Part shown: one piece after another, positions 45,567 through 50,390 of the stretch
Position numbering within the stretch: position 1 is the stretch's first letter
Layout of the letters: every line of letters begins with the position of its first letter
Assembly (NCBI GenBank): GCA_024742575.1
Contig: JANSYF010000012.1
Coordinates: 1 to 64,000 of the forward strand
Direction of reading: 5' to 3'
Source of the DNA: Paracoccaceae bacterium
GTDB taxonomy: Bacteria > Pseudomonadota > Alphaproteobacteria > Rhodobacterales > Rhodobacteraceae
Length of the DNA: 64,000 bases
Notes under the pieces: generated by a model
What the model was told of the DNA's origin: nothing
The model's database searches: none
What the model saw: the letters and a program-made list of their open reading frames with translations, nothing else
Translations under genes and position numbers: made by a program

Positions 45567-46256
45567 GTGAGCCATCCGCATAACGAACCACCGCTGAACC
45601 CGTTGCCGCCCGTGGTGATTGCGCTGTTCCTTGTTATCGTGGGTCTTGAGGTGGTGTTCACGCTTGGCGCAAGGGGGCTGATCGGAGGGCCGGGTGCCGT
45701 GGGGTGGCGTCTGGGTACGCTGGAACGTTTTGCTTTCTCAGCCGAGATTTTCGATTGGATGCGCGAGTCCGGGCGCTGGCCGGTTGAACATGTAATGCGG
45801 TTCGTGTCGTATCCGTTTGTGCATGCCAGCTTTACCCATGCGCTGTTTGCCGGAGTGATGCTGCTGGCGCTTGGCAAGATGGTGGGCGAGGCAATGGGTA
45901 GCCTTGCCGTGGTGCTGATCTTCTTTGTCTCTGCTGCAGGCGGCGCGTTGATTTATGCGCTAGCCGTGGGAAGCTCCATGCCGTTGATCGGCGCGTTTCC
46001 TGCGGTTTATGGGTTGATCGGCGGCTTCACCTATTTGCTTTGGTTGCGGCTGGGTCAGTTGGGCGAAAAGCAAATCCGCGCCTTCACATTGATCGGGTTC
46101 CTCTTGGCGATCCAGTTGATTTTCGGGCTGCTTTTTGGTGCGAATGCCGAGTGGGTCGCTGATCTGGCGGGTTTTGCCATCGGGTTTGCGCTGTCCACCA
46201 TTCTGGTGCCCGGTGGCTTGGCTAAGCTGGTCGACCGGTTGCGTCAGCGCAGCTAG
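45567..46256 (+). CDS. Rhomboid-family membrane protein, probably inactive
   Basis: A 229-residue protein with the six-helix rhomboid layout. Helix 2 has VSYPFVHASFTHALFAGVM. The catalytic Ser site, GASG in active members, reads GAFPAVYG (GCG TTT CCT). The catalytic His helix reads WVADLAGFAIG, with Asp where AHLGG is normal. Both active residues therefore appear to be lost, as in iRhom-like pseudoproteases. The fold may still bind membrane clients. It ends four bases into the convergent murJ gene. Confidence 0.8.
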   Translation: MSHPHNEPPLNPLPPVVIALFLVIVGLEVVFTLGARGLIGGPGAVGWRLGTLERFAFSAEIFDWMRESGRWPVEHVMRFVSYPFVHASFTHALFAGVMLLALGKMVGEAMGSLAVVLIFFVSAAGGALIYALAVGSSMPLIGAFPAVYGLIGGFTYLLWLRLGQLGEKQIRAFTLIGFLLAIQLIFGLLFGANAEWVADLAGFAIGFALSTILVPGGLAKLVDRLRQRS

Positions 46257-47794
46257 CGGCGCCGGAACGCGTCGCGGAACTCACGCAGAGAGAAGGCTCC
46301 GATGGCCTGTCCGATCAGCGCATAGCTGACCATTCCGAGGCCGATCAGGACCGTGAGTGCGATGAACCGAATGCCTGCCATGTCAAGCAACGGACCCAGC
46401 ACAACCGTACCGCCCCAGAGCACGGTGCCCATGGCGATCGAGGCCAGACACACGCGCCAGCTACGCCGCCGGAAGCGGTCGTCAAAGCGGGCGACATCCC
46501 CCATTTTGCGACCGCCCCGTGCCAGCATCCAGACCATCACCCAACCGGCGAGCGTGGTGGCAATGGCCGGTGCGATCCAACCGATAAATGGCGCCAATCC
46601 GACGGCGACGCCTGCATTGATGATCATGGCCCAAACAGCATAACGGAAAGGGGATTTCGTGTCTTCGCGCGCGAAGAACAGCGGTTGCAGAACCTTCTGC
46701 AAAACAAAGGCTGGAAGGCCCAAACCGTAGATAGCGACTGCGATCGCTATAGCCGCGGAATCATCAGCTCCGGTCGCGCCCCTTTGGAACAGGACGGAGA
46801 CCACCGGCAAGGGGATCACGACCAACGCCACAGCCGCGGGAACGGTCAGGGCCAGCGACAGTTCCCCGGCGCGGGAAAAGGCATGTTTTGCACCAGCGTC
46901 ATCCTGCGCCGTAAGGCGTCGTGAGAGATCGGGCAGAAGCACAATTCCGACGGCAATGCCAACCACGCCTAGGGGCAGTTGATAAAGCCTGTCAGCGGCA
47001 TAAAGCCAACCCACGGCTTTGTCGAAATGCGAGGCAACCTGTTGGCCAACAAGCAGATTGATCTGCATCACGCCACCGGCAAGGGCCGCAGGAATAGCGA
47101 CGATGACCAGCCGCTTCATCTCGGGTGTCCAGCGGGGCCGTGTTGGGCGAAGATGAATGCCCGCCCGGTCTGTCGCAATCCAGACAAGGGCGAGTTGGGC
47201 AATCCCTGCGATGGGCACGGTCCAGACCAACCACCGGATCACTTCTCCACCAGAATACGCCGCCCATGCCATTGATGCACATACGAAAATATTCAAAAAC
47301 ACAGGTGCGGCGGCCGCGGCGGCAAAGCGGCCCGTCGCGTTCAGGACGCCGGAAAACAGCGCGGTTAAGGACATCAACAGGATGTAGGGAAAGACGATGC
47401 GGCCATAGTCGACAGTCAGATCGAACCGGGCATCGCCCACGAAACCACCGGCGGTCAACCACACAAGACCAGGCATAAAGACCATGGCGATGGCACTGAG
47501 GATGAGGAGCACGAACGCCAGCCCGGACAAGGCTTGCGTGGCAAATCCGACCGGGTTGTCTTCTGCTTCCAAGCGCTTGGAAAACATGGGAACAAAGGAG
47601 GCGTTGAAAGCGCCTTCGGCGAAGAAACGGCGGAACATGTTGGGCAGGCGGAAGGCTGCAACGAAAGCGTCCATCACGGGGCCGGGGCCGATGAAGGCGA
47701 GGATCATAACCTCGCGCAGCACGCCCAGTATCCGGCTCATCAATGTCCAGAATCCGACGGTGAGAACACCGGAAATGAGGCGGATCGGTTTCAT
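46253..47794 (-). CDS. murJ: Lipid II flippase
   Basis: A 513-residue MurJ/MviN protein of the MOP superfamily with about fourteen helices. The N-terminus FWTLMSRILGVLREVMILAFIGPG carries the essential Arg, and LPNMFRRFFAEGAFNASFVPMFS is the characteristic first loop. Its function is to flip lipid II to the periplasm for wall synthesis. In Rhodobacterales murJ is usually near glnD and trpS; here the order is kept but an accessory patch separates it from glnD. Confidence 0.95.
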   Translation of the reverse strand: MKPIRLISGVLTVGFWTLMSRILGVLREVMILAFIGPGPVMDAFVAAFRLPNMFRRFFAEGAFNASFVPMFSKRLEAEDNPVGFATQALSGLAFVLLILSAIAMVFMPGLVWLTAGGFVGDARFDLTVDYGRIVFPYILLMSLTALFSGVLNATGRFAAAAAAPVFLNIFVCASMAWAAYSGGEVIRWLVWTVPIAGIAQLALVWIATDRAGIHLRPTRPRWTPEMKRLVIVAIPAALAGGVMQINLLVGQQVASHFDKAVGWLYAADRLYQLPLGVVGIAVGIVLLPDLSRRLTAQDDAGAKHAFSRAGELSLALTVPAAVALVVIPLPVVSVLFQRGATGADDSAAIAIAVAIYGLGLPAFVLQKVLQPLFFAREDTKSPFRYAVWAMIINAGVAVGLAPFIGWIAPAIATTLAGWVMVWMLARGGRKMGDVARFDDRFRRRSWRVCLASIAMGTVLWGGTVVLGPLLDMAGIRFIALTVLIGLGMVSYALIGQAIGAFSLREFRDAFRRR

Positions 47795-47856
47795 GCGGGC
47801 TCCTTGCGCGTGACGACCGGGGTAGAGCAGAAATCACCCGGCGAAAAGGGCCTGTT

Positions 47857-47991
47857 GTACGGTTCGGGGGCATGTACCGTACGCTTTGAGCCCCGTTTTG
47901 CGCCTGTTTCCGGGGTTTTGAGCGGGATTTGGCGGGCGGCCGATCAAGCGTACGGATCATGGGCTTGAACCTCGCGATTCATCCGTACGGT
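47857..47991. promoter_or_regulatory. Cluster of CGTACGG motifs upstream of the antitoxin-like gene
   Basis: Four related boxes occur in about 135 bases: GTACGG (47857-47862), ACCGTACGC (47876-47884), AGCGTACGGAT (47947-47957) and ATCCGTACGGT (47981-47991). The last two form a nine-base inverted repeat, CGTACGGAT / ATCCGTACG, with a 23-base spacer. This looks like a multi-site operator between murJ and the divergent Phd-type gene. The protein that binds it is unknown; autoregulation by the antitoxin is a guess. Confidence 0.45.
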
Positions 47992-48091
47992 TTGCCGATT
48001 TTGCGGACATGTTCCGCAACGCACCCTGCGCTTACGATTTGTCAACGCTTTGGCGTCAGCTTGGTCTGATCCGCAAAGATGGGATTCGGCC

Positions 48092-48391
48092 GTGTATATC
48101 TACAACCTCTCTCCGATCGAGAACATCAACACCGACTGGCTGCGCCGCCATTTGCGGCTGGTGCTGGAGGAGGTGAACCATGGGGCACGCTATGCCATCT
48201 TGCGGCGGGGTCGACCTGTGGCGGGGCTTGTGCCCATCACCGAGGCGCGTGCGCTATTTGAGGCGACACGCGCGGATCGAAAATATCGGGACATGCATGC
48301 AGAGTTGAAACGGCGCGACGAAGATCGCTTGCGACAGGCGGTTGCCGATATGGGGCAAGCCGAACGAACCTCTTATGGAGGTGCGACATGA
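48092..48391 (+). CDS. Phd/YefM-type antitoxin-like protein
   Basis: A 99-residue protein starting at GTG 48092 (TTG 48050 possible). INTDWLRRHLRLVLEEVNHGARYAILRRGRPVAGLVPITEA has the prevent-host-death fold: a short helix, two strands and VxGLVP. The C-terminal half is charged and helical (RDMHAELKRRDEDRLRQAVADM), as in the toxin-binding tail of antitoxins. No toxin gene was recognised next to it. It may be an orphan regulator or the remainder of a toxin-antitoxin pair. Confidence 0.65.
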   Translation: MYIYNLSPIENINTDWLRRHLRLVLEEVNHGARYAILRRGRPVAGLVPITEARALFEATRADRKYRDMHAELKRRDEDRLRQAVADMGQAERTSYGGAT

Positions 48392-48500
48392 CGGGCGCGC
48401 CAGCGCGTGTTCTGCAGCCATGGGATTGGTGCCTTTCAGGCGCACTGTTGTATTTGCAAATCGTGTTTGTGCACTTTGGCGACGTATGCCAGACCCTGTT

Positions 48501-50390
48501 TCAGGCGATGTCTGCAAAGGGATTGTCGATGACACCGACGACTGGCATCAGCAAATCCGTGCTGCCTGTTTCTGCAACGATCAGCGAGGCGTCGGACAAA
48601 TCCCGAGCCGCAGAAAGACTTTCGGCGCTGCCGTTGAAGGCATCCATCACACTATTGGCCGCAGCGAGATTATTCTGGCCCTGAACCACCGCGAAATAGA
48701 GTCCGATATCGGTTTTGTCTTCGATATATGCCACATCTGCGGGCGATCCGGTCGCGGCGCGCGCGCCAGCGAGGAGATCAAGAATGAAGCTGCTCGCCGT
48801 TACGGTGCCCGCGTTCAACTGACCTGTCCAGAAATTGAACCCGTCCGCATCGGGATCTCGGCCCAACACGTTATTGTAGACCGCTGTCACGAAATTGTCG
48901 TTGCTGGTTCCCGAATACAGCGCGACAGTTTCCGGCTGGTCAAAGAAAAGGTCTGCAATTGCCTCGAAGGAAAAGCCGTTTTTTTGGAAAGCAGTGGCCC
49001 AGAAAGAAAGCCCCAGCGCATCCGCGGCGCGATTGAAGTAGGCGATATAGAGCTCGGTCAGGGTGGTCAGATCGGCAGCAGAGATGAGGCCGATCCCGTC
49101 ATGCTTGTCGAGTTCGAACGCCACGTCGCCTGCAGTTTCGATGGTTTCGATGCGCAAGAGCGCGGCACTGCCTGCGGTATCGGTTCGATCGGAAACAGTG
49201 GTCACGGAGCCGTTGAACGTCAGAGTCATATCGCCCTGCGCCACAGCATCGAAGCTGACAATATCACGTCCGTCGCCACCATCGATGCTGTCTTGCCCAA
49301 CAAGGTCCGAAGCAAAGAAATCATCGCCTTGATAGAGCCGCACCAACTGCGCGCCGGGTCCATCAATGACCACATCGCCCAAATCGGTGGCAAACACTAC
49401 GGTAAGGTCTGGGGTTGTGACGAAGTTGATCGTTTCGGCGGACCCGAACCCGTCGTTCGCGATGACACCGGTGGCGAAATTCAGATCGAGTCCTTCAGTG
49501 ACATCGCTGAAGAGAAAATCAAAAATTGGAAGCCCGGTACCCGGATCGACATTGTAAACATCTGCCCCAGGACCACCGATTATGGAGACTGTCTGGTTAT
49601 CCCCAAGGCGGAGCGAATACGTGTCGGCACCGCTGGATCCCTCAAGACCAAGATACTGCCCAAGGGCGTCTTCGACGTTCAGCAGCGTGTCGGTAAACCC
49701 TGTCGTGCTGACCGTTCCGGTGTTCATGACCCCGTTGATATCAAAGGTGACAGGTGTACCGATCAAGTCGTAATCCAAAAAGAAACCGGGTCCATCAGTG
49801 CCTTCTGGCACGTCAAAGTCGATCGTGTCGTTCCCGAGGCTGCCGATAATGAAATCGCCATCGGTGTTGCTTGCTCCGGTGCTGATGAAATCATTGCCCG
49901 AACCGCCTTGCACGTCGTCGTCGAAACGCGTTCCCACGAAGGTGATGGGGCGGGTGATCAATGGCAGGAATCCAGCCCAGGTTGCTGCTTGGTTAAAGCC
50001 GCTGATCGCGTTGCTGGCATCTACAGAGATTTCAGCAGAGCTGTTGAAGAGGGTGGCCAATCCGGTGAAGTCAGAGCGGTCATCAATATCAATCAACGCA
50101 TCCTGAAAGGCGCTAGCGGACCAATTGATATCGCTGATCGTGGCTTGTTCGATATCAAGACCGTTGAATTCCATGGACGTGATCACGCCCGAGAGGAAAC
50201 TCCCTTCTTCATCTGCAATGAAGCCAAGCCCGCGCAGCACAACATTGACGTTTGCTTGGGTGAACAAGGTGTGGGTCATGACCGCTTGGGTTGGCGAGAT
50301 CGAGGTCAGCTCAACACTCAGCGTGCCGGAGGCGTCAAAAAAGGATTGTTCCAAAAAGTTTGGATTGTTGCCGGAATAAATGAATTGCAT
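48501..50390 (-). CDS. Secreted RTX-like protein with DUF4214 domain
   Basis: A 629-residue acidic protein without an N-terminal signal peptide, as expected of type I secreted proteins. Repeats of the calcium-binding GGxGxDxxx kind appear at QGGSGNDFISTG, IGSLGNDTIDFD, IGGPGADVYNVD and DGGDGRDIVSFD. Residues about 430-540 form a DUF4214 domain (LYIAYFNRAADALGLSFWA and VYNNVLGRDPDADGFNFWT). DUF4214 proteins occur at cell surfaces and S-layers. No type I exporter is in the window. It lies 29 bases after glnD in the same direction and has no homologous neighbour. Confidence 0.82.
   Translation of the reverse strand: MQFIYSGNNPNFLEQSFFDASGTLSVELTSISPTQAVMTHTLFTQANVNVVLRGLGFIADEEGSFLSGVITSMEFNGLDIEQATISDINWSASAFQDALIDIDDRSDFTGLATLFNSSAEISVDASNAISGFNQAATWAGFLPLITRPITFVGTRFDDDVQGGSGNDFISTGASNTDGDFIIGSLGNDTIDFDVPEGTDGPGFFLDYDLIGTPVTFDINGVMNTGTVSTTGFTDTLLNVEDALGQYLGLEGSSGADTYSLRLGDNQTVSIIGGPGADVYNVDPGTGLPIFDFLFSDVTEGLDLNFATGVIANDGFGSAETINFVTTPDLTVVFATDLGDVVIDGPGAQLVRLYQGDDFFASDLVGQDSIDGGDGRDIVSFDAVAQGDMTLTFNGSVTTVSDRTDTAGSAALLRIETIETAGDVAFELDKHDGIGLISAADLTTLTELYIAYFNRAADALGLSFWATAFQKNGFSFEAIADLFFDQPETVALYSGTSNDNFVTAVYNNVLGRDPDADGFNFWTGQLNAGTVTASSFILDLLAGARAATGSPADVAYIEDKTDIGLYFAVVQGQNNLAAANSVMDAFNGSAESLSAARDLSDASLIVAETGSTDLLMPVVGVIDNPFADIA

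Follow-up and report, generated by a model that had tools for sequence, protein, structure and literature searches.

What do repeated palindromic boxes do upstream of an antitoxin-like gene that appears to stand alone? Antitoxins have mostly been studied as half of a pair, and the 64,000-nt stretch of DNA analyzed here (the window), from a marine bacterium, carries an antitoxin-family gene, phd, that looks solitary and is divergent from the lipid II flippase gene murJ, with a set of GTAC-centered boxes between the two. Our preferred answer, which we hold to be likely from the sequence, is that the neighboring protein, of the Phd/YefM family, is a DNA-binding regulator without a toxin and that the boxes are its operator array.

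An earlier note on this DNA had pointed to four CGTACGG-type boxes. All four are present (Table 1), with the correction that box 1 reads TGTACGG instead of CGTACGG; box 2 reads CGTACGG on the minus strand, and a fifth GTAC, extra to the four boxes, lies at 47874. The core of the boxes is GTAC with CC/GG flanks, and the TGTACA hexamer of YefM operators is not their core. The nine-base inverted repeat that the note had drawn from two of the boxes proved exact, pairing box 3 (47949-47957) with ATCCGTACG (47981-47989) at box 4, and can be extended to 12 nt at 92%. GTAC-to-GTAC distances in the window's murJ array are 17, 5, 71, and 35, without the 13-bp pair that is present in relatives. With five GTAC within 140 nt, the murJ-phd array is the window maximum for GTAC density. 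The window has 7 copies of the bare word CGTACGG versus 4.63 ± 2.40 expected, a count reached by 23 of 100 shuffles, and a genome-wide count of the longer word revealed no enrichment (52 CGTACGGWT in the window genome, G000, versus 53 for the reversed control). Single-word enrichment was ruled out as a signal, both words being at control level; a bare 7-mer search of the genome is therefore uninformative. It is the clustering and conservation of the boxes that are special, not over-representation of the CGTACGG word. A consensus scan of 47780-48420 detected neither a sigma-70-like promoter nor a terminator-like site.

Table 1. Features of the murJ-phd region (window coordinates; columns counted from the murJ start codon)
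Feature	Position	Strand	Description
murJ, lipid II flippase	46253..47794	-	PF03023, E 1.7e-92; divergent from the Phd-like gene
Box 1, TGTACGG	47856..47862	+	GTAC at 47857; column 63; 11/16 Marivita loci
Box 2, CCGTACGC	47877..47884	none	GTAC at 47879; column 85; 13/16 loci
Spacer separating the two box groups	47885..47948	none	Length kept in the genus, sequence turns over
Box 3, CGTACGGAT	47949..47957	+	GTAC at 47950; column 156 in the window
Box 4, CCGTACGG	47983..47990	none	GTAC at 47985; column 192 in most relatives; 9/16 loci
Phd-like gene	48092..48391	+	99 aa, GTG start; antitoxin-family, solitary

Conservation in relatives, whose absence the note had named, together with lack of binding by the adjacent protein, as grounds for refutation, was assessed in Marivita, the genus label used here for the window genome and its close relatives. 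The comparison covered 16 murJ loci from 17 genomes, G002 yielding no murJ match. Boxes are kept at 15 of these 16 loci, each with two or more GTAC (4 to 6) in the 230 nt immediately upstream of murJ; the sole locus below two is that of G007, with none in the stretch. Altogether, the 230-nt stretches contain 71 GTAC versus an expectation of 2.0 based on the remainder of these loci, a comparison in which the genomes are related and the counts are not independent. The array starts 62 nt from the murJ start codon and faces murJ as well as phd, with shared GTAC columns at positions 63, 76, 85, 157, 166, 179, and 192. Besides the occupancies listed in Table 1, column 76 is filled at 6 loci, column 166 at 3, and column 179 at 9, and the GTAC of box 3 lies at column 157 in 11/16 loci and at 156 in 2/16, its displacement in the window being due to a 1-nt deletion. 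Mean pairwise identity was 0.53-0.83 at the boxes versus 0.42-0.43 in two spacer stretches (0.43 for columns 96-150), and the distance of 72 bp between columns 85 and 157 is kept in the genus. Columns 28-54, next to murJ, are conserved too (identity 0.80) and are perhaps the murJ promoter. GTACGG is absent within 1,500 nt of murJ at all eight loci inspected in other genera (L030-L037).

The gene facing the array has a longer open reading frame form starting at TTG 48050, and its orthologues begin at GTG 48092. Its product scored 24.7 bits against the TIGR01552 phd_fam model (cut-off, 20.8), which 13 of 14 orthologues match at an E value of 0.1, and 27.4 bits against PF02604, under the cut-off of 29.8; it is nonetheless the only PF02604 match at an E value of 0.001 in the window genome. 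Close relatives among named records come from Marivita (12 of 14) and from unclassified alphaproteobacterial MAGs (2 of 14). A profile of the N-terminal 60 residues, built from 15 proteins, matched phage P1 Phd (3hs2, 4zlx, and 3hry; E values of 0.0012 to 0.0021) and a chain named "Antitoxin RelB" (1.9e-6), and YefM weakly (0.29). In the alignment, Arg18 falls on Arg10 of P1 Phd and Arg38/39 on Arg30/31, and these arginines are invariant in 14 orthologues; in YefM, Arg10 and Arg31 are required for DNA binding, according to excerpts of PMC4803016. The predicted structure has a strand-helix-strand-strand-helix order, and a fold search with this weak model (mean pLDDT, 61.7) returned no PDB match at an E value of 0.001. 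The profile matches place the protein in the Phd/YefM family. With dN/dS values of 0.05 to 0.18 (15 pairs from 6 orthologues), the gene is under purifying selection. A Pfam search of the adjoining frames found no toxin gene beside it: neither the frame overlapping the phd stop codon (48388-48684) nor five frames downstream of phd in other Marivita genomes matched any family. Several of these downstream frames are alike because they lie opposite a DUF4214 gene, which in the window encodes a 629-aa DUF4214-domain protein on the minus strand (48501-50390), convergent with the Phd-like gene.

Similar arrays recur in Marivita just 3′ of rpsD (at least two GTAC in 16 of 17 genomes) and just 3′ of rlmE (12 of 15, a count that leaves out L050 and L055, in which the end of the gene was not found; no GTAC is seen in L055). 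Adjacent GTAC in the three Marivita arrays (n = 122 distances) are most often 13 bp apart (49), followed by 22 bp (22), 19 bp (17), and 9 bp (9); the window's own distances being different, the 13- and 22-bp rule is therefore read from its relatives and from the other arrays. Pairs of the form GTACGG-N(1-14)-CCGTAC number 198 in the 17 Marivita genomes versus 3 in eight genomes of other genera (rank test, P = 3.8e-5), and the reversed control pattern counts 264 and 146 in the same two sets, respectively. Within Marivita, the pair total is thus not above the reversed control, and the contrast is with other genera. Pair spacing is a stronger sign than pair totals. Among the six genomes listed in full (G016, G007, G015, G010, G009, and G004), 39 of 67 pairs are spaced at 22 bp and 15 at 13 bp, with 14 spacings possible; the binomial P value is far below 1e-20 but inflated by shared ancestry, and G016 alone has 12 of 21 pairs at 22 bp (P = 3e-9). 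Open frames contain a large share of the pairs, 14 of 21 in G016 and 11 of 14 in G015. Intragenic pairs 22 or 13 bp apart in these two genomes (L111-L143) were observed in truB and in PAPS reductase-like and FMN oxidoreductase-like genes.

How the arrays relate to the protein was read from the status of phd across the genus, where an intact gene is found at 14 of 16 murJ loci. G007 has neither a Phd-like gene at its murJ locus nor a PF02604 match in its genome, and it retains 0 GTAC at murJ, 1 at rlmE, and 2 at rpsD, together with 6 pairs versus a mean of 11.6. This joint loss of murJ boxes and Phd supports the link between them, whereas the leftover rpsD GTAC and the six pairs of the same genome count against it, as does G008, in which phd and its array are present and no array occurs at rlmE or rpsD. 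G009, like the named record L110, encodes a Phd-like form without the N-terminal part and yet its three arrays hold 5, 7, and 2 GTAC and 12 pairs remain, which speaks against the link unless the gene was truncated recently or its shortened product can still bind.

Beyond Marivita, a profile of the Marivita protein matched 14 of 394 Rhodobacteraceae genomes at an E value of 0.001, of which two are Marivita (below 1e-44) and the other twelve reach 1.8e-9 at best, and a second Phd profile (A2) matched 67 of 394, with 30 loci listed and ∼40 weaker matches without a locus. We examined 250 nt upstream of 32 non-Marivita homologues, 13 from the first profile and 19 new from A2; their start codons were assigned by rule, so that the 250-nt frame is shifted. 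GTAC occurs 40 times in these regions, compared with 8.2 predicted from the loci themselves (P = 1.5e-15), and 17 times versus 4.9 in the 19 regions outside the search profile (P = 1.4e-5). At least two GTAC precede 13 of the 32 homologues, and none precedes 14 of the 32. Among the 13, five have a same-strand frame of at least 85 aa close behind phd, of which only that of L180 has a Pfam match (ParE_toxin). By eye, L150, L154, and L157, with no GTAC upstream, look like antitoxins of PIN toxins. Other repeated palindromic boxes, also seen by eye, stand upstream of GTAC-free Phd-like genes (L175, L185, and L187; L184, L186, and L188); they are of the CAATCCGTCC / GGACGGATTG type or the TTTAAA type, as if the operator were subfamily-specific. 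At L147 and L153, the Phd-like gene is followed on its own strand by a frame that looks like FtsW by eye, which would place two lineages of Phd-like proteins beside a peptidoglycan gene, the one in Marivita being murJ.

Two genomes of other genera repeat their phd-upstream unit elsewhere. In G352, this unit measures 39 bp, has GTAC distances of 9, 9, and 21, and recurs at eight further loci; the nine copies share 84% mean column identity, one of them with 22 instead of 21, and the frames beyond the unit match GidA/TrmFO, gyrase B, a DEAD-box helicase, a trypsin-like peptidase, and methylmalonyl-CoA mutase. G334 contains TTTCGTACGAAA 9 times (reversed control, 0), with a four-box unit (12, 61-63, and 12 bp) located 97-183 nt upstream of phd; of seven further loci read, five carry the four-box unit, one a partial unit, and one a single box. 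Among other genomes with phd-like genes, TTTCGTACGAAA occurs 5 times in G070, 6 in G057, 2 in G245, and 0 in G352, G118, and G076; seven genomes without a Phd match have 0 or 1.

Across the family, a triple GTACG cluster is found in 44 of 394 genomes, and A2 matches 15 of these 44 versus 52 of the remaining 350 (odds ratio, 2.96; P = 0.0026). The family-wide link of GTACG clusters with Phd is thus real but modest. G253 has dispersed GTAC arrays (L207-L213) with distances of 9, 13, 15/22, and 35 bp that resemble the Marivita grid, and no A2 match in the genome or in these seven stretches. Tandem GTAC boxes every 11 bp (e.g., GTACG-N6-GTACG repeated) occupy several loci per genome in G288, G163, G281, G218, and G316 (L222-L251), five genera likewise without an A2 match. 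Around GTACG clusters, 53 stretches (L207-L259) from ten genomes (G253, G352, G288, G163, G281, G218, G316, G386, G015, and G000) contained no Phd-like frame, A2 giving nothing at an E value of 1 and a broader Phd profile a best value of 0.73; for the eight stretches of G352 this is expected because its phd stretch (L153) is a separate one, and for G253 and the 11-bp arrays of the five genera it counts as a negative result.

We propose that the array is probably the operator through which a solitary Phd-type regulator controls its own gene, and that this regulator probably also acts on murJ and on distant targets. Dimers of the Phd-like protein would occupy the GTAC-centered palindromes, with neighboring dimers in contact at 13 bp and also at 9, 19, and 22 bp, and would fill the array cooperatively. 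The two box groups, ∼72 bp apart, would flank the divergent phd and murJ promoters, and the bound protein might loop the DNA between them. Occupancy most likely represses phd, i.e., autoregulation, and most likely modulates murJ; further probable binding sites of the Phd-like protein are the arrays at rpsD and rlmE, along with the pairs elsewhere that are spaced at 13 or 22 bp.

The boxes could instead be bound by a different, genus-specific DNA-binding protein for which the Phd-like gene is merely one target. We consider this rather unlikely. Arrays do persist in G009 with its truncated Phd and partly in G007 with none, similar arrays occur in G253, where no Phd-like homologue was found, and five more genera carry 11-bp GTAC arrays without an A2 match. 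However, GTAC boxes recur before Phd-like genes in other genera with differing neighbors, G352 and G334 repeat precisely their phd-upstream unit at other loci, and Phd/YefM proteins are known to bind GTAC-core palindromes, according to excerpts of PMC4803016 and PMC7730913. A REP-like dispersed palindromic repeat, forming hairpins or mobile and served by no dedicated regulator, is very improbable. Exact box spacing is kept while the intervening DNA turns over, a single hairpin would not give spacings of 13, 22, 19, and 9, and the arrays occupy orthologous positions throughout the genus instead of lying scattered. In favor of such a repeat are the sites at gene ends (rpsD and rlmE), the perfect palindromes close after gene ends in G057, the G334 unit within a long open frame (L190), and the box pairs inside open frames of G016 and G015. 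Dispersed copies exist, but, compared with REP and BIME elements, as spaced multi-box units with turning-over spacers. An RNA hairpin, which GTACGG-N5-CCGTAC could form, was rejected as well, since 9-, 13-, 19-, and 22-bp distances kept over changing spacers better fit a DNA-bound protein.

We give hardly any weight to a classical toxin-antitoxin operator whose toxin is elsewhere or was recently lost. Phd family membership and the operator-like boxes agree with it, but no Pfam family was found in the frame overlapping the phd stop or in the five downstream Marivita frames, and purifying selection across the genus does not fit recent toxin loss. The autoregulated toxin-antitoxin operator foreseen in the earlier note therefore survives in its operator half, with boxes that are conserved, resemble Phd/YefM operators, and have GTAC counterparts upstream of Phd-like genes elsewhere, and not in its toxin half, the adjoining frames having yielded no toxin gene.

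The regulator without a toxin may have a wider counterpart. It is possible, and we advance it tentatively and as one set of linked points, that Rhodobacteraceae hold a toxin-free class of Phd/YefM proteins turned genome-wide DNA-binding regulators. The GTAC-type box would be particular to each lineage, and a bipartite array would precede phd, with groups ∼60-75 bp apart in several genera. Arrays would also lie at several to about twenty other places, including inside genes; DNA may be wrapped or looped by the protein, which may in part organize the chromosome, and boxes and protein would co-evolve. An antitoxin-family protein seemingly retained for its DNA-binding side alone, beside essential cell-wall genes, would be a candidate for regulating the essential gene murJ. 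The predicted binding code, box plus spacing, is measurable and takes different boxes in several lineages, making testable both the route from antitoxin to ordinary regulator and what sets the distance code between neighboring Phd-type dimers.

In the phage P1 phd-doc operator, the palindromic subsites share a GTAC core and are spaced 13 bp apart. The Phd-like protein is homologous to the P1 antitoxin, as judged from the N-terminal profile match; no Doc-like gene was found here, whereas in P1 the Doc toxin bridges Phd dimers, according to excerpts of PMC4803016. The chromosomal Phd-Doc system of Enterococcus faecalis, as portrayed in parts of PMC13034048, also joins a Phd-family antitoxin to a palindrome, but there a single 10-bp one, with a partner toxin and a different DNA-binding arrangement. 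YefM and Axe operators, in excerpts of PMC4803016 and PMC7730913, consist of paired palindromes with a TGTACA core at a fixed distance of 12 bp, which the N-terminal domain of the antitoxin binds, and an altered distance disturbs cooperative binding. As far as these excerpts describe yefM-yoeB and axe-txe, the present locus shares with them GTAC-core palindromes paired at fixed distance and an adjoining Phd/YefM-family protein, and differs in its core (CCGTACGG, not TGTACA) and spacing (13, 22, 19, and 9 bp, not 12 bp). It differs further in having as many as seven box columns, split into two groups, and more than one locus per genome, and in that no toxin gene was found. A search of the literature at the level of titles and abstracts returned no report of a toxin-less Phd/YefM regulator. 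Paired GTAC-core palindromes ∼12-13 bp apart upstream of an antitoxin gene are a feature seen here at the level of the genus. The comparison therefore supports the idea of an autoregulated operator, given the GTAC-core paired palindromes of YefM and Axe and the membership in the Phd family. In place of the earlier suggestion that the motif may define a new regulator, the regulator would be a variant of a known family. By analogy, the array may be viewed as the operator logic of YefM and Axe enlarged, with GTAC-core palindromes at set distances arranged in two groups.
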